From assembly GCA_016124675.1 (NCBI GenBank), contig WGNG01000002.1, forward strand, positions 186,001-250,000: 64,000 nucleotides of DNA. Direction: 5' to 3'. The position numbers were made by a program, and so were the translations under genes. The stretch is from Alphaproteobacteria bacterium. Lineage in GTDB: Bacteria > Pseudomonadota > Alphaproteobacteria > Caulobacterales > Maricaulaceae. How positions within the stretch are numbered: position 1 is the first letter of the stretch; the number at the start of each line of letters is the position of its first letter. The notes under the pieces were generated by a model. That model saw only the letters and a program-made list of their open reading frames with translations, made no database searches and had not been told where the DNA came from. Below, one piece after another: positions 33,355 through 45,669 of the stretch.

Positions 33355-34239
33355 ATGGACGCATCCATCGTCATTCGCACCTATAACGAGGGCAAATGGC
33401 TGGGAGACGCGCTGGAGGCGGTGGCGGCGCAGGACGCTGCACCCTTCAGTTATGAAGTCGTGATCGTCGATTCCGGCTCCACCGACGACACGCTGAAAAT
33501 CGCTGAAGCCCATGGCTGCCGCATCACCCATATCAGGAAATCCGACTTCACCTTCGGACGCTCGCTCAATGTCGGGTGCGAGGCGGCTCAGGGCCGGTTT
33601 CTGGTGTTCATCTCGGGCCATTGCATTCCGGTGGGAACCCGCTGGCTCCATGATCTGGTGAAGCCGCTGGATGATGGCGTTTGCGCCTATGTCTACGGAC
33701 GCCAGCAAGGCAAGCCCGGCCTGACGAAGTTTTCCGAAGAACAGCTCTTCCGCAAGTATTTCCCCGACCGTTCGGCCCTCCCGCAGGATGATTTCTTCTG
33801 CAACAACGCCAACGCCGCCATCCTGAAATCGGTCTGGGAGGCGCGCCGTTTCGATGAGGCGGTCACCGGGCTCGAAGACATGGTGCTCGCCAAGCAGCTG
33901 GTCGCAGACGGGCTGAAGATCGGCTATGTTGCCGAAGCCTCCGTCATCCACATCCACGAAGAGAGCTGGTCCAAGGTCAAGACGCGCTATGAGCGCGAGG
34001 CTGTGGCTCTGCAGGACATCATGCCCGAAGTGCATGTGCGCCTCGGCGATTTCCTGCGCTACACCATGGCCGGCGTCTTCCACGATCTGGGCGAGGCGCT
34101 CACCCAGCGCGTATTCTGGAAGGAGGCGGGCGGCATCATCCTGTTCCGCTTCAACCAGTACTGGGGCAGCTATCAGGGCAATAACAATCACCGCAAGCTG
34201 TCGCAGGATCGCAAGGACCGGTATTTCTACCCGCGCTGA
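33355..34239 (+). CDS. Family 2 glycosyltransferase
   Basis: MDASIVIRTYNEGKWLGDALEAVAAQ...VVIVDSGSTDDTLKIAEAHGCRI. Confidence 0.88.
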   Translation: MDASIVIRTYNEGKWLGDALEAVAAQDAAPFSYEVVIVDSGSTDDTLKIAEAHGCRITHIRKSDFTFGRSLNVGCEAAQGRFLVFISGHCIPVGTRWLHDLVKPLDDGVCAYVYGRQQGKPGLTKFSEEQLFRKYFPDRSALPQDDFFCNNANAAILKSVWEARRFDEAVTGLEDMVLAKQLVADGLKIGYVAEASVIHIHEESWSKVKTRYEREAVALQDIMPEVHVRLGDFLRYTMAGVFHDLGEALTQRVFWKEAGGIILFRFNQYWGSYQGNNNHRKLSQDRKDRYFYPR

Positions 34240-34277
34240 GCCACGGCGCGGCCATCACTCAATCAGGAGCCTTCCCC

Positions 34278-34982
34278 ATGCCGGACCGTTTCAAGCTGGT
34301 CGCCCTTCTGCCCATGAAGGCGCACTCGGCGCGCGTCACATCGAAGAATTTCCGCGAGTTCGCGGGCAAGCCGCTGTTCCGCTGGATTCTCGACACCCTC
34401 CTGAGCATGGAAGAGATCGACCGGGTGGTGATCAATACCGATGCGCGCGAAATCCTGTCGGACAAGGGCCTCAATGACGGGGATGCGGGTGGCCGGGTGA
34501 TGATCCGCGACCGCAAGCCGGAGATTTGCGGCGATTTCGTCTCGATGAACCTGGTGCTGGGCGATGACGTCGCCAATGTGGACGCTGATACCTATCTGAT
34601 GACCCACACCACCAACCCCTTGCTGTCAGCGGCGGCGATGCGCGGCGCACTGGCCAAGTATCATGCGGCGAAAGCGGCGGGCGAGGCCGACAGCCTGTTT
34701 GCGGTCAATCGCATCCAGACGCGCTTCTACCGCGAGGACATGAGCCCGGTGAATCACGACCCGGACAATTTGATCCGGACCCAGGACCTGGAGCCCTGGT
34801 ATGAGGAAAACTCCAATCTCTATCTGTTCAACCGCGAGAGCTTCGCGGCGACGAACGCGCGCATTGGCAAGCGCCCGGCCATGTATGTGACCCCTGCGCT
34901 GGAATCCATCGATATCGACGACGCCGACCAGTGGGCTCAGGCCGAAGCGGTCGCGCTGTACAACGCCCGCAAAGGGAGCTGA
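34278..34982 (+). CDS. Acylneuraminate cytidylyltransferase family (CMP-sugar synthetase-like) protein
   Basis: LVALLPMKAHSARVTSKNFREFAGKPLFRWILDTLLSMEEIDRVVINTDA. Distinct from the canonical kdsB at 54534. Confidence 0.82.
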   Translation: MPDRFKLVALLPMKAHSARVTSKNFREFAGKPLFRWILDTLLSMEEIDRVVINTDAREILSDKGLNDGDAGGRVMIRDRKPEICGDFVSMNLVLGDDVANVDADTYLMTHTTNPLLSAAAMRGALAKYHAAKAAGEADSLFAVNRIQTRFYREDMSPVNHDPDNLIRTQDLEPWYEENSNLYLFNRESFAATNARIGKRPAMYVTPALESIDIDDADQWAQAEAVALYNARKGS

Positions 34983-34986
34983 CACC

Positions 34987-35931
34987 ATGCGCGTTCTGGT
35001 CACCTGCCCGCCCATGCTGGGCATGATTGACGAATTCCGTCCCCTGTTTGCGGACAACGGCGTGGAGCTGGAGGCTCCCAAAGTCGTCCAGACCCTGTCG
35101 GAGGACGAGCTGATCGCGCTGCTGCCCGGCTTTGACGGCTGGATCATCGGTGATGACCCGGCCAGCGCCCGCGTGCTGGAGGCCGGTGCGGCGGGCCGGC
35201 TCAAAGCCATCGTGAAATGGGGCGTGGGCGTCGACAATGTGGACTTCGCCGCCGCCAAGCGGCTGAACCTGCCGGCGGTCAATACCCCGGGCGTGTTCGG
35301 ACGCGAGGTGGCTGACCTTGCGGTCAACTATGTCAACGGGCTGGCGCGCGAAAGCTATTACATCGACCGGGAAATCCGGCTGAACAAGACCTGGCCCAAG
35401 CCGCGCGGCATTTCGCTGGCCGGACGCACGGCAGGGGTGATCGGGTTTGGCGATATCGGGCGCAATACGGGCCTGCGCCTGCTCGCCGCCGAGATGCGCG
35501 TGATCGCCTATGATCCCACCTTCCGCCCGCTGGAAGGGCATCAGGTGGAGAACAAGCCCTGGCCCGAAGGCGTGGAGGCGTGCGACTTCCTGGTCTTCAC
35601 CGCCCCGCTCAACGCCCACACCCGCCACATGTTCAACGAAGATGTGCTGGCGCGGGTGAAGCCGGGCGTGCGCATCGTCAATGTCGGGCGCGGGCCGGTG
35701 ATCAAGGAGACCGCGCTGCTGGCCGGTCTGGAATCGGGGCGCATCCACTCGGCCGCGCTCGACGTGTTCGAGATCGAGCCCCTGGCGCCGGACAATGTGC
35801 TGCGCACCTATGACCGCTGCATATTCGGCTCCCACAACGCCTCGAACACCGAGGACGCGGTGCGCCGGGTCAGCCTGCAGGCCATTGGCCACATGTTCGA
35901 TTTCCTGGGCGTCAAGCGGGCGGACGCCTGA
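34987..35931 (+). CDS. D-isomer-specific 2-hydroxyacid dehydrogenase (phosphoglycerate dehydrogenase-like)
   Basis: GRTAGVIGFGDIGRNTGLRLLAAEMRVIAYDP; VKPGVRIVNVGRGPVIKETALLAGLESGRI. Confidence 0.85.
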   Translation: MRVLVTCPPMLGMIDEFRPLFADNGVELEAPKVVQTLSEDELIALLPGFDGWIIGDDPASARVLEAGAAGRLKAIVKWGVGVDNVDFAAAKRLNLPAVNTPGVFGREVADLAVNYVNGLARESYYIDREIRLNKTWPKPRGISLAGRTAGVIGFGDIGRNTGLRLLAAEMRVIAYDPTFRPLEGHQVENKPWPEGVEACDFLVFTAPLNAHTRHMFNEDVLARVKPGVRIVNVGRGPVIKETALLAGLESGRIHSAALDVFEIEPLAPDNVLRTYDRCIFGSHNASNTEDAVRRVSLQAIGHMFDFLGVKRADA

Positions 35932-36668
35932 TGCGCGCCGCGCTCGTCACCGGCATCGCTGGCGGGATCGGATCGGCGCTGGGCGCCGCGTTCAGGGCGG
36001 CGGGCTACCGCGTGATCGGGACCGGGCGCATGCGCGCGGACGGCGATATCTGCGACGCGTTCGTGGAGGCTGACCTTAATCAGCTCGCCGAGGATGTCGC
36101 AGCGCTGGACGTGTTCGCGCGGGCGGTGAGGGCGGCGCTGGACGGCGCTGAGCTCGGCGTGCTTGTCAACAATGCCGCCGCCCAGATCCTCGCGCCGGTG
36201 GAAGGCCTCTCCATGGATGCCTGGCGGCGCACCATGAATGTCAATCTCACCGCCCCCTTCCGTCTGGTGCAGACCTTTCTGCCTGAACTCGAAGCGGCCC
36301 GCGGCTGCGTGATCAATATCGGCAGCGTGCATGCCCAGGCGACAAAGCCTGAATTTGCCGCCTACGCCACGTCCAAGGCGGCGCTGCATGGCCTGACCCG
36401 GGCGCTGGCGGTGGATCTGGGCGCGCGCGTGCGTGTCAACTGCCTGGCGCCCGCTGCGATCGCGACGCCCATGCTGATGGCCGGGTTCGAGGGCCGCGAG
36501 GCAGCGTTTCAGGACCTCGAAGCCTGTCATCCGCTCAACCGGATTGGCGCGCCGGAGGAGGCCGCCGCTGCTGCGGTCTTTCTGGCCTCGCCCGGCGCGT
36601 CCTTTGCGACCGGGACGATTTTCTATCTCGACGGGGGCGTGCTCTCGCGCCTGCATGATCCGGTATGA
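35931..36668 (+). CDS. SDR family oxidoreductase
   Basis: AALVTGIAGGIGSALGAAFRAAG...LVNNAAAQI...YATSKAALHGLTRALAVDLG. Confidence 0.88.
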   Translation: MRAALVTGIAGGIGSALGAAFRAAGYRVIGTGRMRADGDICDAFVEADLNQLAEDVAALDVFARAVRAALDGAELGVLVNNAAAQILAPVEGLSMDAWRRTMNVNLTAPFRLVQTFLPELEAARGCVINIGSVHAQATKPEFAAYATSKAALHGLTRALAVDLGARVRVNCLAPAAIATPMLMAGFEGREAAFQDLEACHPLNRIGAPEEAAAAAVFLASPGASFATGTIFYLDGGVLSRLHDPV

Positions 36669-37510
36669 GCGGCCCATTGATGATCGGCGAGCCCGAATGC
36701 GTCTGGGACGCGCGCGCCATCCTCGGCGAAGGCCCGGTGTGGGACGGACGCGCGGTCTGGTGGACCGACATCAAGGCGCCGGCCCTGCATCGCTTTGAAC
36801 CGGTCACAGGCCGCCAGACCAGCTGGGCTGCGCCCGAAGCCGTGGGCTCCTTCCTGATCGAGCCGGACGGCCGCCTGCTGGCGGCCATGAAGTCGGGCTT
36901 CGCGCGTCTGCGTGTGGCGCCGGACGGCGGCGCGATCGAGGTGGAGCCGATCTGCCAGCCCGAGGCGGACACGCCTGGCAACCGCTTCAATGACGGCAAG
37001 CGCGCCCCGGACGGCAGTTTCTGGGCGGGGACGATGGACGACGCCGAGAGCCGGGCGTCCGGCGCCTGGTGGCGGCTCGATCCGGCTGGAACCGCGCGTT
37101 GCCTTGAAACGGGCTACCGCGTCACCAATGGACCGGCTTTCGACGCGGCGCGCGGGCGGGTCTATCTCACCGACTCAGCCCGGCAGACGGTGTACGTGGC
37201 CGACCTCGCCGATGGCGGCGCGGGGTTTTCCGGCAAGCGGGTCTTCGCGCAATTCGGCGAGGGTGACGGCTATCCTGACGGCATGGAGACAGACGCGGAC
37301 GGCTGTCTGTGGATCGCCTTCTGGGATGGCTGGCGGATTGATCAATACAGCGCTGATGGCGCGCTCCTGGCGCGGATCCCGATGCCAGTCGCGCGTCCGA
37401 CCAGCCTCGCCTTTGCGCAGGACGCGATCTATGCCACCTCGGCCTCCATTGGCCTTGAGGGTCAGACGCTGGCCGGCGGGCTGTTCAGAATCCCGCTTCA
37501 GGCCGGCTAG
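36665..37510 (+). CDS. SMP-30/gluconolactonase/LRE family protein
   Basis: ILGEGPVWDGRAVWWTDIKAPALHRFEP; NRFNDGKRAPDGSFWAGTMDD; GYPDGMETDADGCLWIAFWDGWRIDQY. Confidence 0.9.
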   Translation: MSGPLMIGEPECVWDARAILGEGPVWDGRAVWWTDIKAPALHRFEPVTGRQTSWAAPEAVGSFLIEPDGRLLAAMKSGFARLRVAPDGGAIEVEPICQPEADTPGNRFNDGKRAPDGSFWAGTMDDAESRASGAWWRLDPAGTARCLETGYRVTNGPAFDAARGRVYLTDSARQTVYVADLADGGAGFSGKRVFAQFGEGDGYPDGMETDADGCLWIAFWDGWRIDQYSADGALLARIPMPVARPTSLAFAQDAIYATSASIGLEGQTLAGGLFRIPLQAG

Positions 37511-39636
37511 TCCTTTTCCAGGCGTTCAGCCTCGTACTCTTCCAGCCGCGCCCGGATGTCTTCCATTTGGGAATCGAGCTCAATATAGCGCAGCTCACGC
37601 GACGCCTCGCGCCCGTGAAGCTCGGCGAGCTGGCGGTGAGCTTCAAACAGGAGCCTGCGCGACTTGATCGCCACCGCAGCGGTAAAGGCGAACGCGGCCA
37701 GGAACAGCGCCAGCGGCCAGAGCCAGGGACGCAAGGGTTCGGCAGGCGGGCTCGCCAGCGCGGCGGCGCCGAGCGCGGCCAGCACGGCCAGCAGCGCGGC
37801 GAAGCGGCGATTGCGCCAAAGGGACAGGGCGGGCTGGCGCAGGGTTGCGGGCAGGCGGTTGATGAGGGGTTCAATCCCGGCCGGCCGGGCGGGCTGATCA
37901 CCCGGCGGCGGCGGCGCTGCAGCGCGGGCCTTGATGATGACCTGGGCGTCCGGATCGAACAGCGTCTTGAATTCGACCTTGTCGAACACGTCCAGCGCGC
38001 CGTCGACCGTGGCGTCGAACACCTTGATCCCCCGCGCTTCCAGCGCCTGGCGGGCGATGCGGTAATGCTCGATCATCATATCCGTGCGCGGAGCATGCCA
38101 TTTGCGGCCCTTGCCGAAATAGGCAGGGTCGAAATGATTGGGGTCGTCATCGCGCGTGGAGACCAGCGCCATGGCCTCGCCGTCCTCTACCTCGACGCTT
38201 GCGGGCACGGTGTAGCGCGTGTCGCAGCCGATGAGATAAATCTCAGAAAAGCCCATATAGGCAGCGATTTGCAGCATGGTGATCGCAACCGTGCGCGGCT
38301 GGATCAGGTGCGCGTTCATATCGGCTGAGAACATCGAGCCGGGCAGGTCGTCGAGCGTCCCGTAGGCTTCGCGGAAATAGAAGCGGTTGCGCCCGGTGGG
38401 AATGATCACGCGAGTCGGATAGCGCCGCCGTTCGCCGACATGCTCCTCGATTTCGGTGGGGAAAAAGGCGGTGATGGACGGATTTCGGCCCAGCATGTCC
38501 CGAATGTCCGCCGCGCGATCCGGCAGCACGCGCGAATCCACGCAGGTGTAATAGGTCGGCCGCCAGTTGATCCGGTCAAACAGCAGGAAGGCGGAATTGC
38601 ACGCAAAGACCGTCTCGCCCTCCAGAAGCTCAAGGTCGGTGTTGTTCAATGACGGTCCGTTGCCCATGATGAAACAGCGCTGGCCGGCATGGACGCCGGC
38701 GAAACGCTCCATGAGGCTGGGCGCGCGCGCGCGCTCGAGCGCATCCGCAAAAGGCCGGGTATCGACCGGCGCAGTGCGCGAGGTGCGCCCCCTGGGGCCC
38801 AGGCTGGCCGGGCGGATGATGGGAGGGTCGCAGGGCGCAAGCTCGCTATTGCGCGCCAGCCGCGTCTCGTCGTCCATCGTGACGGGCGCATCGGGCAGGA
38901 GCAGGCTGAAGGCGTTGCGGAATTCGGGCTCCACCGCTGCGAGTTCGCGGGCAATGATCGCGCGCGCCTCACTCTCATACCGCGTCTTGAAGACGATGGA
39001 GCGCTGACCCGGGCGTACGCGGAAACAGCCCAGATGCCGGTCGACGGTGTGAAGCTCCGCATGACGGAAGAAGCGGCACCACAGTTCGAAATCATTGGCG
39101 AGCCGATAGTCCGTATCCAGCCGGCCGCCGGCGCGATCCCACAGGCTGCGCCGCCAGAACGTTGATTCCTGCTGGATCCACTGATTGTCGCCCGCCAGAA
39201 AGCGCAGGCGCGACCAGGGCCGGGTCTGGCCCATCCATTCGATCACGCCCTCGGAATTCATACTGGATGGCCGCCCCGTGATCCACTCGATATCGGGGCG
39301 CGCCTCGAACACGCGTGCGACAAAGGACAGCGTGCCTGGCAGGATGACGTCGTCGGAATTGATCCAGCCCATCAACTCCCCGGTTGAGGCGGCGAAGCCC
39401 TTGTTGAGGGCGTCCGCGTGGCCGTCATCCGGTTCGCTGATGATCGTGGCGAGCCGGTCGCGATATTCCTCGATCAGGAGCCGCGAGCCGTCCGTGCTCG
39501 CCCCGTCTGCGATGATGTATTCCAGCTCCGGATAATTCTGCTCCAGCACGGATTCCAGGCACGGTCGCAGATAGGCCCGCCCGTTCCAGTTCGGGGTCAC
39601 GATGGAAAAGCGCGGGCGCGTTGCGGCAGGCGACAT
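37507..39636 (-). CDS. Fusion of GT2 glycosyltransferase and DUF115/MptE-like (possible GT42-like) domain, with C-terminal TM and coiled-coil regions
   Basis: N-terminal FSIVTPNWNGRAYLRPCLESVLEQNYPELEYIIADGASTDGS; central RCFIMGNGPSLNNTDLELLEGETVFACNSAFLLFDRINWRPTYYTCVDSRV; C-terminal hydrophobic segment then KSRRLLFEAHRQLAELHGREASRELRYIELDSQMEDIRARLEEYEAERLEKD. Confidence 0.82.
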   Translation of the reverse strand: MSPAATRPRFSIVTPNWNGRAYLRPCLESVLEQNYPELEYIIADGASTDGSRLLIEEYRDRLATIISEPDDGHADALNKGFAASTGELMGWINSDDVILPGTLSFVARVFEARPDIEWITGRPSSMNSEGVIEWMGQTRPWSRLRFLAGDNQWIQQESTFWRRSLWDRAGGRLDTDYRLANDFELWCRFFRHAELHTVDRHLGCFRVRPGQRSIVFKTRYESEARAIIARELAAVEPEFRNAFSLLLPDAPVTMDDETRLARNSELAPCDPPIIRPASLGPRGRTSRTAPVDTRPFADALERARAPSLMERFAGVHAGQRCFIMGNGPSLNNTDLELLEGETVFACNSAFLLFDRINWRPTYYTCVDSRVLPDRAADIRDMLGRNPSITAFFPTEIEEHVGERRRYPTRVIIPTGRNRFYFREAYGTLDDLPGSMFSADMNAHLIQPRTVAITMLQIAAYMGFSEIYLIGCDTRYTVPASVEVEDGEAMALVSTRDDDPNHFDPAYFGKGRKWHAPRTDMMIEHYRIARQALEARGIKVFDATVDGALDVFDKVEFKTLFDPDAQVIIKARAAAPPPPGDQPARPAGIEPLINRLPATLRQPALSLWRNRRFAALLAVLAALGAAALASPPAEPLRPWLWPLALFLAAFAFTAAVAIKSRRLLFEAHRQLAELHGREASRELRYIELDSQMEDIRARLEEYEAERLEKD

Positions 39637-40397
39637 CAGCGGCTCCTGAGCGGGTGCAGGGCGACAGACAGGGTGGATTTCAAAGCGTTCCAGGGTCCGG
39701 CGTGGCGATGCACGAGGCGGGCGACTTCGCGCAGGCGGCGCGGGGAGATGTCAGCCGTCTTGGTGCCGGCGCCCATGTAGACGCAAGACAGCGGCTGGTC
39801 GATGCGCCGGAACCGGACCCCGGCGGCATAGAGCCGGACCCAGAGCTCCCAGTCCATCGTGTAGACCAGGGACGGGTCAATGCCCCCGACGGCCTCCACG
39901 CAGGCGCGGCGCACGAAGCAGGACGGCTGGGAGATGAGATTGGACCGGTAGAGGAGCGGACCCGCCTCGGCGGCATGGTCGTGTGATCCGACAATACGTC
40001 CGGTCTCGTCAATGAAATGGGATCCGCCATGCACCACCCCCGCGTCGGGATCGGCGTCGAAAGCCTGCGCAACCGTGGTCAGCGCGCCGGGCGCCAGCAG
40101 GTCGTCTGCATTCAGCCAGCCCAGAACCGGCGCGCCCATGTGCGCCCAGCCTTCGGCGATGGCGGCGGACTGACCGGCATCGGGACCCGTGCGCCGGTAG
40201 GTGAAATCAAGACCGCTGGCGTCCGCGGCGGCGGCGACGCGCGGATCGCCCGACGCGTCCAGAAAGGCGATTTCAACGCCCGCGTCCTGGCATGCCAGGC
40301 TGTCCAGCGCAGCGGGCAAAAGCGGATGCCAGGCCCCCACCGGCATGGCGATGGCGAAGCGCGCTGCGATGTCGGTCATATCCGTCCCGGTCGTCAT
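39636..40397 (-). CDS. GT2 family glycosyltransferase
   Basis: GWLNADDLLAPGALTTVAQAFDADPDAGVVHGGSHFIDETGRIVG...DWELWVRLYAAG. Confidence 0.82.
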   Translation of the reverse strand: MTTGTDMTDIAARFAIAMPVGAWHPLLPAALDSLACQDAGVEIAFLDASGDPRVAAAADASGLDFTYRRTGPDAGQSAAIAEGWAHMGAPVLGWLNADDLLAPGALTTVAQAFDADPDAGVVHGGSHFIDETGRIVGSHDHAAEAGPLLYRSNLISQPSCFVRRACVEAVGGIDPSLVYTMDWELWVRLYAAGVRFRRIDQPLSCVYMGAGTKTADISPRRLREVARLVHRHAGPWNALKSTLSVALHPLRSR

Positions 40398-40551: not shown

Positions 40552-42378
40552 ATGTGCGGCATTGTCGGTGTGTCGGGGCGGGCGGACGCCGCCGACGTCC
40601 TGCTGGAAGGCCTGCGCCGGCTGGAATATCGCGGCTATGACTCGGCGGGCATTTGCGTGGCGGCCCACCAGGGCGCCCTGGTGACCGAACGCGCGGCGGG
40701 CAAGGTCGCCGCGTTGGCGGGCAAGCTGGCGGCGCGCGGCGGGCTTCCGGGCCGCTGCGGCATCGCCCATACGCGCTGGGCGACCCATGGCGCGGCGGAA
40801 GAACGCAATGCCCACCCGCACCGCGCCGGACGCGTGGCGCTGGTCCATAACGGCATTATCGAGAATCACGGCCCGCTCAAGGCCGAGCTGGCGGCGCGTG
40901 GCCGGGTGTTTGCGTCCGACACCGATTCAGAGGTCGTCGCCCATCTGTTCGACCAGGCGCTGGACGCGCATGACGATCCTCACGACGCCTGGCGCGCGGT
41001 GGTCGCCCGGCTGCAGGGCGCCTTCGCGCTGGCGGCGGTGAGCGAGACCGCGCCGGGCCTGGTGTTCGGTGCGCGCAAGGCCGCGCCCTTGCTGGCCGCG
41101 CTCGGCGCGGGGGCTGGCTATATCGCCTCGGACGCCATGGCGCTGCCGGAGGATGCGGCCACGCTCATCTATCTCGACGACGGCGATACGGTGGCGGTCA
41201 GCGCGGGCGCGGCGGATGTGCGCGACGCGCAAGGCCGGCCCGCCCAGCGCAAGCAGGCTGCCGGCCCCGGCGCCTTCGGGCGCGTCGACAAGGGGCCGTT
41301 CCGTCACTTCATGGAAAAGGAAATCCACGAACAGCCCGAGGTGGTGGGCCGCACCATCGCGGCCTATGTCAACCTCGCCGACGGCGCGGTGAACCTTCCG
41401 GCCAGGGTGAACTTCGCCGGCATGAACCGGCTGCTGATCGTGGCGTGCGGCACGGCGGCCTATGCCGGCATGGTGGCGCGCTACTGGTTTGAGAGCCTGG
41501 CCGGGCTTCCCACCGAGGTCGATATCGCCTCGGAGTTCCGCTATCGCGACCCGGCGTTCTCGCCCGGTGATGCGGCCCTGTTCATTTCCCAGTCGGGCGA
41601 GACCGCCGACACGCTCGAAGCGCTGCGCCTGTGCAAGGCGGCGGGGCTTGTGACCATTGCGCTGACCAATACCGCCCATTCCACCATGGCGCGTGAGGCT
41701 GATATCGTCCTGCCGACGCTGGCCGGGCCGGAGATCGGGGTGGCGTCCACCAAAGCCTTCACCTGCCAGCTGGCGGCGCTGGCGGCGCTGTCGGTCGCTG
41801 CGGGCGCCCAGCGCGGGCGCCTGGATGGCAAGGCAGTGCAGGGCGCCATCGCCGATCTCTCCGCCGCGCCGCGCCTGATGGGCGAGGCGTTGAGCCTGCG
41901 CCAGGGGGTGGACGCGCTGGCGCTGGACCTGGCGCGCAGTGCGATCGTCCTGTTTCTGGGGCGCAACACGCTGTTCCCGCTGGCGCTGGAAGGCGCGCTG
42001 AAGCTTAAGGAAATCAGCTATATCCATGCCGAAGGCTATGCCGCCGGCGAGCTCAAGCATGGCCCTATCGCGCTCATTGAAGAAGGCGTGGCGGTGATTG
42101 TCCTGGCGCCCATGGACGCGCTGTTCGACAAGACCCGCTCCTCCATGGAGCAGGTGCGCGCGCGCGGCGCACGGGTGATTGCGGTGACCGACCCGGACGG
42201 CGCGTCGGCGCTGGACAGCCAGAATGCCCTCACCCTGGTGACGCCTGCTGCGGGCCGGCTGGCGGCGCCCATCGTCATGGCGGTGGCGGTGCAGCTGATC
42301 GCGTACCTCACGGCGGTCCACAAGGGCACGGACGTGGACCAGCCGCGCAATCTCGCCAAGTCGGTGACTGTCGAATAA
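40552..42378 (+). CDS. glmS: Glutamine--fructose-6-phosphate aminotransferase (isomerizing)
   Basis: MCGIVGVSGRADAADVLLEGLRRLEYRGYDSAGI; SIS domains; C-terminal DQPRNLAKSVTVE. Confidence 0.96.
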   Translation: MCGIVGVSGRADAADVLLEGLRRLEYRGYDSAGICVAAHQGALVTERAAGKVAALAGKLAARGGLPGRCGIAHTRWATHGAAEERNAHPHRAGRVALVHNGIIENHGPLKAELAARGRVFASDTDSEVVAHLFDQALDAHDDPHDAWRAVVARLQGAFALAAVSETAPGLVFGARKAAPLLAALGAGAGYIASDAMALPEDAATLIYLDDGDTVAVSAGAADVRDAQGRPAQRKQAAGPGAFGRVDKGPFRHFMEKEIHEQPEVVGRTIAAYVNLADGAVNLPARVNFAGMNRLLIVACGTAAYAGMVARYWFESLAGLPTEVDIASEFRYRDPAFSPGDAALFISQSGETADTLEALRLCKAAGLVTIALTNTAHSTMAREADIVLPTLAGPEIGVASTKAFTCQLAALAALSVAAGAQRGRLDGKAVQGAIADLSAAPRLMGEALSLRQGVDALALDLARSAIVLFLGRNTLFPLALEGALKLKEISYIHAEGYAAGELKHGPIALIEEGVAVIVLAPMDALFDKTRSSMEQVRARGARVIAVTDPDGASALDSQNALTLVTPAAGRLAAPIVMAVAVQLIAYLTAVHKGTDVDQPRNLAKSVTVE

Positions 42379-42450: not shown

Positions 42451-43578
42451 ATGACGCCCCGCATGATTCCCTTCATCGATCTCGCCGCCCAACGCGCCCG
42501 CATTCAGGACCGGCTCGACGCCGCGATCGCCAGGGTGATCGCGGACGGCAAATACATTCTCGGTCCCGAAGTCACCGAGCTTGAAGCCCGGCTGAAGGCG
42601 TTCGGCGAGACGCGCCATGCGTTGACCTGCGCCAATGGCACGGACGCGATCCTCCTGCCGCTGATGGCCTGGACAATCGGCAAGGGCGATGCGGTGTTCG
42701 TGCCGAGCTTCACCTTCGCCTCCACCGCCGAAGTGGTGGCGCTCGCGGGCGGGACGGCGGTGTTCGTGGATATTGATCCCGACACGTACTGCATGGACGC
42801 GGCGAGCCTGGAGCGCGCCATCGATGCGGTGAAACGCGACGGCGCGCTGACCCCGCGCGCGGTGATCGCCGTGGACCTGTTCGGCCAGCCGGCGGACTAT
42901 CCGGCGCTCAGCGCCATCGCGCGCGCCCACGGCTTGAAGCTCATCGCCGACAGCGCGCAGGGGTTTGGCTGCACGCTGAATGCACAGCACCCGGCCCATT
43001 GGGCCGATATCGCCACTATCAGCTTCTATCCGGCCAAGCCGCTGGGCTGCTATGGCGATGGCGGGGCGATGGTGACCAATGATGATGAACTGGCCAGCCT
43101 CCTGGCCTCGCTGCGCAATCACGGCCAGGGCGCCGAGCGCTATGCCTATGACCGCATCGGCCTCAACTCGCGCCTCGACACGATCCAGGCGGCGATTCTT
43201 TTGGCGAAGCTGGATATTTTCGCTGACGAGATTGTTCAGCGTAACGCCGCTGCAGATGTCTATGCTGCCGCGCTCGGCGACGTCGTGAAGACGCCGGTGG
43301 TGATCGCGGGCGGGGTGTCGACCTGGGCGCAGTACACGATCGAGGTCGATGACCGCGACGCCTTCCGGGCGCGCCTGGCGGACAAGGGCGTGCCGACGGC
43401 GGTATACTATCCCGTGCCGATGCATGTGCAGGGGCCCTATCAGCGTTACCCTCTGGCGCCGGGCGGCCTGCCGGTGACCGAGCGGGCCATGGCGCGGGTC
43501 GTGTCCCTGCCGATGGACGCGTATCTGACGGGCGCGCGTCAGGATCAGGTCATCGCGGCGGTGCGCGCGAGCGTGTAG
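42451..43578 (+). CDS. DegT/DnrJ/EryC1/StrS family PLP-dependent sugar aminotransferase
   Basis: FIDLAAQRARIQDRLDAAIARVIADGKYILGPEVTELEARLKAF; ISFYPAKPLGCYGDGGAMVTND. Confidence 0.92.
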   Translation: MTPRMIPFIDLAAQRARIQDRLDAAIARVIADGKYILGPEVTELEARLKAFGETRHALTCANGTDAILLPLMAWTIGKGDAVFVPSFTFASTAEVVALAGGTAVFVDIDPDTYCMDAASLERAIDAVKRDGALTPRAVIAVDLFGQPADYPALSAIARAHGLKLIADSAQGFGCTLNAQHPAHWADIATISFYPAKPLGCYGDGGAMVTNDDELASLLASLRNHGQGAERYAYDRIGLNSRLDTIQAAILLAKLDIFADEIVQRNAAADVYAAALGDVVKTPVVIAGGVSTWAQYTIEVDDRDAFRARLADKGVPTAVYYPVPMHVQGPYQRYPLAPGGLPVTERAMARVVSLPMDAYLTGARQDQVIAAVRASV

Positions 43579-43654: not shown

Positions 43655-44665
43655 GTGCGTCACTTGCAGGCCAGCATCATCACCCGGCGTTTGAAGCGCC
43701 CCTTTGTCATCGCCACCGGCGCGCGCACCGAGCAGGCCTCTGTGAGCGTCACCATCAGCCATGGCGAGGATGTCGGCCAGGGCGAGGCTGTGGGGGTGAG
43801 CTATCGCGGTGAAACTCCGGACATCATGCTGTCGCAGATCGAGGCGGTGCGGGTTGCGCTCCACGGCGGCGCGGGGCGGGCGGAGCTCATGAAACTGCTG
43901 CCGCCGGGCGGGGCGCGCGCGGCGCTGGATGCAGCGCTGTGGGATCTTGAAGCGCGCCGCGCCGGAACAACGGTGGCAGCCTTGTGCGGGCTCGCCGCAC
44001 CGGTGGGAGCGGTGGCCACCGCCTACACCATCTCGCTCGATACCCCTGACGCCATGGAGGCGCAGGCGCGCGATGCGGCGCACCGGCCGTTGCTCAAGGT
44101 GAAGCTTGGCCGCCGCGACGGGCTGGACGGCGCGCGCGCCGCCGCCGTGCGCCGGGGCGCGCCGGACGCCGTGCTGATCGCTGACGCCAATTGTGGCTGG
44201 ACGCGAGAGGACCTGCCCCACCATGCCCATGAGCTGGCGGCGCTGGATTTCAAACTGCTCGAACAGCCCCTGCCGCCTGGCCAGGATCATTTGCTTGACG
44301 ATTTCCGCTCGCCCCTGGCTTTGTGCGGGGATGAGAGCTGCCAGTCCATGGCCGAGCTCGACGCGGCGGCGCGGCGTTATGACGTGATCAACATCAAGCT
44401 CGACAAGTGCGGCGGCCTGACCCACGCGCTGGAAATGCGCTCACGCCTGCGCGCGCTGGGCAAGGGCGTGTTCGTGGGCTGCATGATCTGCGGCGTGCGC
44501 GCGATCGCGCCGGCCCTGATCCTGGCCCAGGACGCCGATTTCGTGGATGTGGACGGGCCGGTCTGGCTGGCTGAAGACATCGCCCCCATGGAGCTGGACG
44601 ATCAGGGCCGGCTGTCGCCGGTGCCCGCCGGCGTGTGGGGCGGCATGGGAGAGAGACTGTCATGA
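43655..44665 (+). CDS. dgcA: Enolase-superfamily dipeptide epimerase / N-acetyl-D-Glu racemase DgcA-like
   Basis: PLLKVKLGRRD...LIADANCGWTREDL...CGDESCQSMAEL...NIKLDKCGGLTHALEM; ATGA overlap with a DUF1611 gene. Confidence 0.8.
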   Translation: MRHLQASIITRRLKRPFVIATGARTEQASVSVTISHGEDVGQGEAVGVSYRGETPDIMLSQIEAVRVALHGGAGRAELMKLLPPGGARAALDAALWDLEARRAGTTVAALCGLAAPVGAVATAYTISLDTPDAMEAQARDAAHRPLLKVKLGRRDGLDGARAAAVRRGAPDAVLIADANCGWTREDLPHHAHELAALDFKLLEQPLPPGQDHLLDDFRSPLALCGDESCQSMAELDAAARRYDVINIKLDKCGGLTHALEMRSRLRALGKGVFVGCMICGVRAIAPALILAQDADFVDVDGPVWLAEDIAPMELDDQGRLSPVPAGVWGGMGERLS

Positions 44666-45669
44666 TCGCGCTGCCCTATCTGGTGTTTCTGGGCGATGCC
44701 GACCGCGAGGTGGGGGTGAAGACCGCCCAGGGCGTTCTGTACTGGCGGCCAGAGCAGGTGGCCGGCCAGTTCCGCCTGCCGGGCTGCGAGCTGGATCTGG
44801 GCATCCCTGACATGGACTATGAGACGGCTGTGGCTGCAGGCGCGCGCACCGTGCTGGTCGGCATCGCCAATCGCGGCGGCATTCTGCCCGAGCGCTGGAT
44901 CGAGCCGCTGCGCCAGGCGCTGGAAGCTGGGTTCGACATCGCCAGCGGCCTGCACCAGCGCCTGAGCTCGTTTCCCGCCCTCAAGCAGACCGCCGACAGG
45001 CTCGGCCGCCAGCTGCATGACGTGCGTCACTGGTCGGGGCCGCCCATCAAGCTGGGCACCGGCGAGAAGCGCTGCGGCCAGCGTGTGCTGATGGTGGGGA
45101 CAGACTGCAATATCGGCAAGAAGTTCGCGGCGCTGGCCGTGGCGCGCGAGATGGCCGCGCGCGGGATCAAGTCCACCTTCCGCGCCACCGGCCAGACGGG
45201 TCTGCTGATCGCAGGCGAGGGTGTGGCGGTCGACGCGATTCCCGCCGATTTCGTGTCCGGCGCGGTTGAGATGCTGTGCCCGGCCAACGATCCCGACCAC
45301 TGGGACGTGATCGAGGGGCAGGCCAGCGTGCTGCATCCCTTCTTCGGCCAGGTCACGCTGGGACTGGTGCTCGGCGCACAGCCTGACGCGCTGGTTCTGT
45401 GCCACGAGGCGGGGCGCGCCCATATTCGCGGCATGCCGAACCGGCCTCTGCCCAGCCTGACGGCGACGCTGGAGGCGCATCTGGCGGCGGCGCGGATCAA
45501 TAACCCGCACGTGCGCGCGGCGGCCGTCAGCGTCAACACGGGCGCGCTGTCGCCGGACGCTGCGGAAGCGGCGCTGGAGGCGGCAAGGCGCGAAACCGGC
45601 CTGCCCGCCACCGATCCCATCCGTCATGGCGCGGGCGTGCTGGTGGACGCGATTCTGGCGGGGCGTTAG
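44662..45669 (+). CDS. dgcN: DUF1611 protein, N-acetyltransferase DgcN-like
   Basis: KRCGQRVLMVGTDCNIGKKFAALAVAREMAARGIKSTFRATGQTGLLIAGEGVAVDAIPADFVSGAVEML. Confidence 0.8.
   Translation: MIALPYLVFLGDADREVGVKTAQGVLYWRPEQVAGQFRLPGCELDLGIPDMDYETAVAAGARTVLVGIANRGGILPERWIEPLRQALEAGFDIASGLHQRLSSFPALKQTADRLGRQLHDVRHWSGPPIKLGTGEKRCGQRVLMVGTDCNIGKKFAALAVAREMAARGIKSTFRATGQTGLLIAGEGVAVDAIPADFVSGAVEMLCPANDPDHWDVIEGQASVLHPFFGQVTLGLVLGAQPDALVLCHEAGRAHIRGMPNRPLPSLTATLEAHLAAARINNPHVRAAAVSVNTGALSPDAAEAALEAARRETGLPATDPIRHGAGVLVDAILAGR

Follow-up and report, generated by a model that had tools for sequence, protein, structure and literature searches.

How can an operon that encodes a synthetase for cytidine monophosphate (CMP)-activated sugar acids, and no NeuB-type synthase, obtain the acid that it activates? 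The question is raised by five genes in a 64-kb stretch of an alphaproteobacterial genome (Maricaulaceae; assembly GCA_016124675.1, contig WGNG01000002.1, positions 186,001 to 250,000; hereafter the window). They encode a family 2 glycosyltransferase (GT2), a CTP_transf_3 enzyme (the 34278 enzyme, named after its start position), a D-2-hydroxyacid dehydrogenase (HADH), a short-chain dehydrogenase/reductase (SDR) and an SMP-30-type lactonase, and they face a gene for a GT2-DUF115 fusion. To our knowledge, the bacterial pathways to CMP-activated ulosonic acids that have been characterised rely on a phosphoenolpyruvate (PEP)-condensing synthase of the NeuB or KdsA type. We propose, with moderate confidence, that the operon encodes a self-contained route, independent of NeuB, to a CMP-activated ulosonic (2-keto sugar) acid destined for a surface glycan. 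The existence of a conserved NeuB-independent CMP-ulosonate module in general is well supported. An earlier sequence-only reading of the window had suggested an unusual CMP-activated sugar acid as the product of the 34278 enzyme, and this is supported as the likeliest product.

Conservation and arrangement of the module

Using the CTP_transf_3 protein (CTP) alone as bait, 80 loci were collected from named species-level genomes, and their neighbourhoods were read by tblastn, open reading frame clustering and profiles, proximity being defined as within 5 kb of the CTP gene unless stated otherwise. The loci span seven phyla (Pseudomonadota, Verrucomicrobiota, Planctomycetota, Cyanobacteriota, Nitrospirota, Myxococcota and Bdellovibrionota), with carriers that include Hyphomonas, Parvularcula, Novosphingobium, Nitrospira, cyanobacteria, an Akkermansia metagenome-assembled genome (MAG) and planctomycetes; among genomes related to that of the window, CTP relatives are patchy. 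HADH and GT2 genes each lie near CTP in 61/80 loci and SDR genes in 46/80, followed by metallo-beta-lactamase (MBL)-fold hydrolases (21/80), SMP-30 proteins (19/80) and HpaI aldolases (11/80), and a DUF115 gene occurs within 10 kb in 53/80. The operon GT2 belongs to a distinct subfamily (FtFGRSLNxGC...SgHCiP) that adjoins CTP in HADH-type loci and is absent from HpaI-type loci. A second GT2 family (GT2b, family F7) was found in 20 loci and is a frequent neighbour of the module in alphaproteobacteria.

The order GT2-CTP-HADH-SDR is kept across the seven phyla at protein identities of about 50-75%; the neighbourhood is therefore not a product of chance, and the view that the operon genes form one functional unit is supported. 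Families such as SDR, SMP-30 and 2-hydroxyacid dehydrogenase are common in catabolism, and a glycan CMP-synthetase might have come to lie beside unrelated sugar-catabolic dehydrogenase and lactonase genes by accident; with order and orientation conserved over seven phyla and with genes that overlap, such a coincidence is scarcely credible. The sequence-only reading had proposed a survey of this kind and held that it would fail if the genes never co-occurred elsewhere; co-occurrence over 80 loci in seven phyla disposes of that objection. In Phenylobacterium sp. J426, the HADH gene (L107:10642-11572) is split over two frames and the CTP frame starts late, through sequencing errors or decay.

Three recurrent arrangements were distinguished among the 80 loci (REPLACEMENTS). 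The first, GT2-CTP-HADH-SDR-SMP30, is found mainly in alphaproteobacteria; the second, MBL-GT2-CTP-HADH-SDR, occurs in Nitrospira, Verrucomicrobiota and gamma- and delta-proteobacteria; and the third, confined to Verrucomicrobiota, consists of HpaI-CTP, usually with a DUF115 gene close by, and lacks HADH, SDR and GT2. HpaI and HADH are mutually exclusive (Fisher p=7e-9), as are SMP-30 and MBL (p=0.002), both values ignoring relatedness. At a Woeseiaceae locus (L111), SMP-30 lies upstream of GT2, in the slot otherwise held by MBL. Since the HpaI loci are nested within HADH-type Verrucomicrobiota in the CTP tree, this clade probably exchanged the dehydrogenase route for the aldolase. Three HpaI-CTP loci from Opitutales/Verrucomicrobiales (L081, L083 and L097) adjoin CysC/CysD/CysN-like sulfate-activation genes, which suggests a sulfated glycan there.

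A distinct CMP-synthetase subfamily without a NeuB partner

The 34278 enzyme forms its own CTP_transf_3 subfamily, characterised by the motif ALLPMKAHSxRVxxKNFR, and K23, N24 and the metal-site residues D212 and D214 are invariant in the alignment of its relatives. It scores below the cut-offs of both the PseF equivalog TIGR03584 (67.7 vs 205.7 bits) and the KdsB subfamily (23.8 vs 193 bits). The structure prediction that the sequence-only reading had advised was carried out with AlphaFold2 (pLDDT 93), and the nearest folds are CMP-Kdn synthetase 9t4z and NeuA, KdsB being weaker. The PF02348 score, the NeuA fold and the invariant metal-site aspartates together place the enzyme in the CTP_transf_3/NeuA-like class. 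At a more distant locus (L031:7981-15653), a 43%-identical CTP homologue neighbours another kind of 2-hydroxyacid dehydrogenase together with a 1715-aa DUF115 protein, which suggests a wider, older family.

The genome of the window (2.88 Mb, 23 contigs), which its nearest named matches mark as a relative of Oceanicaulis and Alkalicaulis, contains exactly three CTP_transf_3 genes, namely kdsB (54534), pseF and the gene of the 34278 enzyme. No NeuB-type synthase lies within the 64-kb window, which bears out, for NeuB, the earlier statement that the window holds no nonulosonate synthase. A PF03102 search of the whole genome, also advised by the sequence-only reading, returned a single NeuB-type gene, that of PseI (G000:C9:305514). 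PseF, PseG, PseH and PseI are encoded consecutively (cluster L002:9278-12609), and pseB and pseC were not located in this genome. A NeuB-type pathway elsewhere in the genome that supplied the substrate would have counted against the sequence-only reading. A PseI is present, but pseudaminate has its own CMP-synthetase (PseF) and therefore has no need of the 34278 enzyme, and many other module-bearing genomes lack NeuB altogether, so that objection does not apply.

Across the survey, 45/80 module-bearing genomes have no PF03102 match, whereas KdsA, taken as a check on completeness, scores above its cut-off in 69/80; incompleteness therefore does not explain the missing NeuB. The figure of 45 is conservative, because even weak matches to PF03102, with E-values of 1e-4 to 1e-11 (e.g. 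G127, G128, G134 and G135), were counted as NeuB; these probably represent relatives of 3-deoxy-D-arabino-heptulosonate 7-phosphate (DAHP) and Kdo-8-phosphate synthases. As the carrier genomes are mostly drafts or MAGs, single absences are weak, although the proportion is not. NeuB-free isolates include Geminisphaera colitermitum TAV2, Lamprobacter modestohalophilus, Hyphomonas chukchiensis, Hyphomonas sp. CY54-11-8, Parvularcula maris and Amphiplicatus metriothermophilus. In the isolate draft of Sphingomonadales bacterium EhC05 (L038), which carries the whole GT2-CTP-HADH-SDR-SMP30 operon, neither NeuB nor KdsA was detected, and no KdsA was found for a second sphingomonad with a complete operon (L054). 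With no synthase in the operon, a PseI that has its own PseF and these NeuB-less genomes, the system does not behave as a NeuB-dependent nonulosonate pathway.

The possibility that the CTP enzyme activates pseudaminic acid (Pse), from the genome's pseFGHI, or another nonulosonic acid (NulO), with HADH and SDR acting as epimerising enzymes, is the closest rival to our proposal and has a precedent: EpaA, a phage-encoded CTP_transf_3 protein fused to an aldo-keto reductase, makes 8-epi-Pse together with EpaB (PMC12053666). The presence of PseI and the NeuA-like fold of the CTP enzyme are consistent with such tailoring, and the EpaA/EpaB-like pairs of Acinetobacter likewise combine a CTP_transf_3 gene with an oxidoreductase. 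However, those pairs need Pse and use an aldo-keto reductase fusion, whereas Pfam detects no aldo-keto reductase domain in the 34278 enzyme and the module occurs without NulO synthesis. The excess of NeuB-less over KdsA-less carriers, the aldolase that takes the dehydrogenases' place in one clade and a lactonase that would be superfluous make tailoring rather unlikely. Pse as the substrate of the 34278 enzyme was rejected, both because pseF-G-H-I makes it redundant and because of the NeuB-less carriers.

Re-activation and modification of Kdo (3-deoxy-D-manno-octulosonic acid), as for Kdo8N in Shewanella, would agree with the frequency of KdsA among the carriers and with the inclusion of KdsB in the CTP_transf_3 family. 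The enzyme is nevertheless closer to NeuA and CMP-Kdn synthetase in both sequence and fold, two sphingomonads have complete operons and no KdsA found (one of them also NeuB-less), and the replacement of the dehydrogenases by an HpaI aldolase does not suit Kdo tailoring; we regard a Kdo-derived sugar as highly improbable. Kdo as first-choice substrate was accordingly rejected on sequence, fold, the separate kdsB and carriers without detected KdsA, in agreement with the sequence-only reading, which had thought Kdo improbable on account of the kdsB gene.

Proposed chemistry of substrate supply

The enzyme families of the operon are compatible with an oxidative route. The HADH has invariant catalytic residues (R235, E264 and H283 in the alignment), and its relatives in the PDB are phosphoglycerate dehydrogenase and a 2-ketogluconate reductase. 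The best PDB relatives of the SDR, which keeps S/YxxxK, are glucose 1-dehydrogenases, and that of the SMP-30 protein, with LGEGP, NRFND, TNGP and YPDG motifs intact, is 7plb, which we take to be the Caulobacter xylonolactonase. Metal motifs are intact in SMP-30 and MBL alike, and the PDB relative of HpaI is YfaU, a 2-keto-3-deoxy sugar aldolase. At L060 and L063, the SDR slot holds a relative of XylB-type D-xylose 1-dehydrogenase whose top NCBIfam match (E=4e-76) falls below the equivalog cut-off, and the matches of SDR and SMP-30 to a XylB/XylC-type aldose-to-aldonate unit are at family level.

In the pathway that we infer, including its substrates, step order, sugar identity and acceptor, the SDR would oxidise an aldose to a lactone, SMP-30 would open the lactone to an aldonic acid, and HADH would oxidise C2 of the aldonate to give a 2-ketoaldonic acid. 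The CTP_transf_3 enzyme would then convert the 2-ketoaldonate to a CMP-ulosonate, and the DUF115 (Maf/GT42-like) transferase, with its GT2 partner, would attach the ulosonate to a surface polysaccharide. In other lineages, a UlaG-like metallo-hydrolase unrelated to SMP-30 may serve as the lactonase, and in the Verrucomicrobiota clade an HpaI-type aldolase could supply the 2-keto acid in one step. The simplest product that the two supply routes could share is a 2-keto sugar acid, and acids of this kind are activated by NeuA/KdsB-family enzymes. The sequence-only reading had seen the dehydrogenase and lactonase as an unusual addition; the pairing makes better sense if these enzymes themselves provide the substrate.

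More tentatively, the loci could represent a widespread and hitherto undescribed class of surface glycans whose building block is a CMP-activated hex-2-ulosonic (2-ketoaldonic) acid. The acid would arise by aldose oxidation and not by a condensation of the NeuB type, and one CMP-synthetase subfamily would be served by exchangeable suppliers, namely a lactonase (SMP-30 or MBL) or the HpaI aldolase. Several observations weigh against the proposed pathway. About a dozen HADH loci have neither SDR nor lactonase near CTP; the PDB match of MBL to the UlaG lactonase is weak (E about 4e-11), its putative lactonase role being assigned by analogy; and the HpaI clade is a single lineage, in which the replacement amounts to one to three events. 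Moreover, HpaI acting with pyruvate yields a 3-deoxy acid and the oxidative route a 3-hydroxy acid, so a single compound from the two routes requires either that hydroxypyruvate be the HpaI substrate or that both acids be accepted by the CTP enzyme.

Another candidate is a CMP-activated 2-keto-3-deoxy acid resembling KDG (2-keto-3-deoxygluconate) or KDR (2-keto-3-deoxyrhamnonate), formed by HpaI condensation in Verrucomicrobiota and elsewhere drawn from central metabolism, with HADH and SDR modifying or recycling it and the lactonase in a side role. In its favour, the relatives of HpaI are aldolases for 2-keto-3-deoxy sugar acids, some loci lack SDR or lactonase, and the CMP-ulosonates known to us are 3-deoxy. 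Yet neither a dehydratase nor another aldolase is a recurrent neighbour in the HADH loci, and an SDR with an interchangeable lactonase suits aldose oxidation better; this alternative is therefore considered unlikely.

The DUF115 transferase and its target glycan

The fusion protein that faces the operon comprises an N-terminal GT2 domain, a DUF115/MptE-like domain at about residues 298-580 (PF01973, 44.3 bits vs a cut-off of 34.6) and C-terminal hydrophobic segments. Foldseek searches with an AlphaFold2 model of the DUF115 domain (pLDDT 87) matched Maf 5mu5 (E=1e-7) and CstII (E=4e-4), with modest TM-scores of 0.4-0.5. A DUF115 profile aligned with the CstII sequence (E=2e-7) from the GNGPSL motif to an NHF motif placed against the 'SHY' of CstII, which we take to hold the catalytic histidine. 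On this fold-level evidence, the domain is predicted to adopt a Maf/CstII-type CMP-sugar transferase fold; the PF01973 and fold matches put it in the DUF115/Maf-like, GT42-like class, supporting the kinship with Maf and GT42 first noticed in the sequence. Among 61 related genomes, PF01973 occurs in six, all of them CTP carriers (p=1e-7).

That the operon faces the fusion, as the sequence-only reading described, is true of this genome, but such adjacency is confined to it and G011. In the congeners G005 and G008, the fusion lies beside glmS elsewhere and a different DUF115 protein adjoins the operon; in G006 and G007, the region after argG continues without the module. A longer relative of that protein (1710 aa, L114:8284-13416) lies beside a GalE-like gene.

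Relatives of the module sit among GDP-fucose, dTDP-rhamnose and ABC-transporter genes, in islands of the O-antigen or capsule type, and no flagellar gene context was seen in the loci read. Because of these islands and the hydrophobic C-terminal segments of the fusion, a surface polysaccharide appears a likelier target than flagellin, to which the sequence-only reading had also pointed. Its analogy with ptmA/ptmB, a pair from a LegI-dependent system, is not supported either.

Comparison with known systems

With the NeuB/NeuA pathways (sialic, pseudaminic, legionaminic and Kdn), the module shares a NeuA-family CMP-synthetase, a CstII/Maf-like transferase fold and a surface-glycan context; it differs in that the cluster, like 45/80 of the genomes, contains no NeuB, PseI or LegI synthase, and SDR, lactonase and 2-hydroxyacid dehydrogenase, or HpaI aldolase, stand in its place. 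Oxidative aldose pathways (Caulobacter XylB/XylC; glucose dehydrogenase with gluconolactonase) pair an SDR aldose dehydrogenase with an SMP-30 lactonase, a combination that the module resembles at family level, with a XylB-type SDR at two loci; in the module, however, a 2-hydroxyacid dehydrogenase and CMP activation would follow where those pathways have a dehydratase and catabolism, and it lies in glycan islands. Maf/GT42-like (DUF115) transferases share the Rossmann GNGPSL motif and the fold, but the window protein is fused to GT2, has hydrophobic C-terminal segments and belongs with polysaccharide islands rather than flagellin genes. Literature searches, with limited coverage of subscription papers, found no description of the cluster. 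If the proposal is correct, an operon that works without a PEP-condensing synthase, and in which different enzymes can take over equivalent steps, would extend the known bacterial glycan repertoire by a biosynthetic route and probably also by a sugar; the module likewise suggests a donor that can be tested with many DUF115 transferases awaiting assignment.

Operon layout and neighbouring genes

The features are listed in Table 1; the Pfam calls for the operon proteins exceed curated cut-offs. The coordinates and spacings given for the five plus-strand genes in the sequence-only reading all check, the successive gaps being 38, 4, -1 and -4 bp, and the fusion gene is convergent with the SMP-30 gene over a 4-bp overlap.

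Table 1 Genes of the operon and adjoining transferases, in window positions
Feature	Position	Strand	Evidence
GT2 glycosyltransferase, first operon gene	33355-34239	+	Pfam PF00535, 82 bits
CTP_transf_3 CMP-sugar-acid synthetase	34278-34982	+	Pfam PF02348, 54.6 bits vs 22.6 cut-off
D-2-hydroxyacid dehydrogenase (HADH), phosphoglycerate dehydrogenase/2-ketogluconate-reductase type	34987-35931	+	Pfam, PDB relatives
SDR, proposed aldose 1-dehydrogenase	35931-36668	+	Pfam, PDB relatives
SMP-30/gluconolactonase family, proposed aldonolactonase	36665-37510	+	Pfam PF08450, 232 bits
GT2-DUF115 fusion, candidate transferase	37507-39636	-	Pfam PF00535 and PF01973
Second GT2 (GT2b)	39636-40397	-	Pfam

Beyond GT2b, the genome's only GlmS (40555-42378) is 53-57% identical to the GlmS of congeners, compared with 88-89% for ArgG, and a close GlmS copy (88-92%) is present only in module-bearing congeners; the pattern suggests a xenologous replacement tied to the DUF115/GT2b block. 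A DegT gene at 42451 was considered as PseC and rejected, as it scores below the PseC cut-off; in those module-bearing congeners that were read, it accompanies glmS. Two overlapping genes follow at 43655-45669, one of them DUF1611-like and the other DgcA-like (N-acetyl-D-Glu racemase, 371 bits against a cut-off of 400); they were rejected as part of the module and, as a D-glutamate-type pair, probably serve D-glutamate catabolism (DgcN-DgcA).

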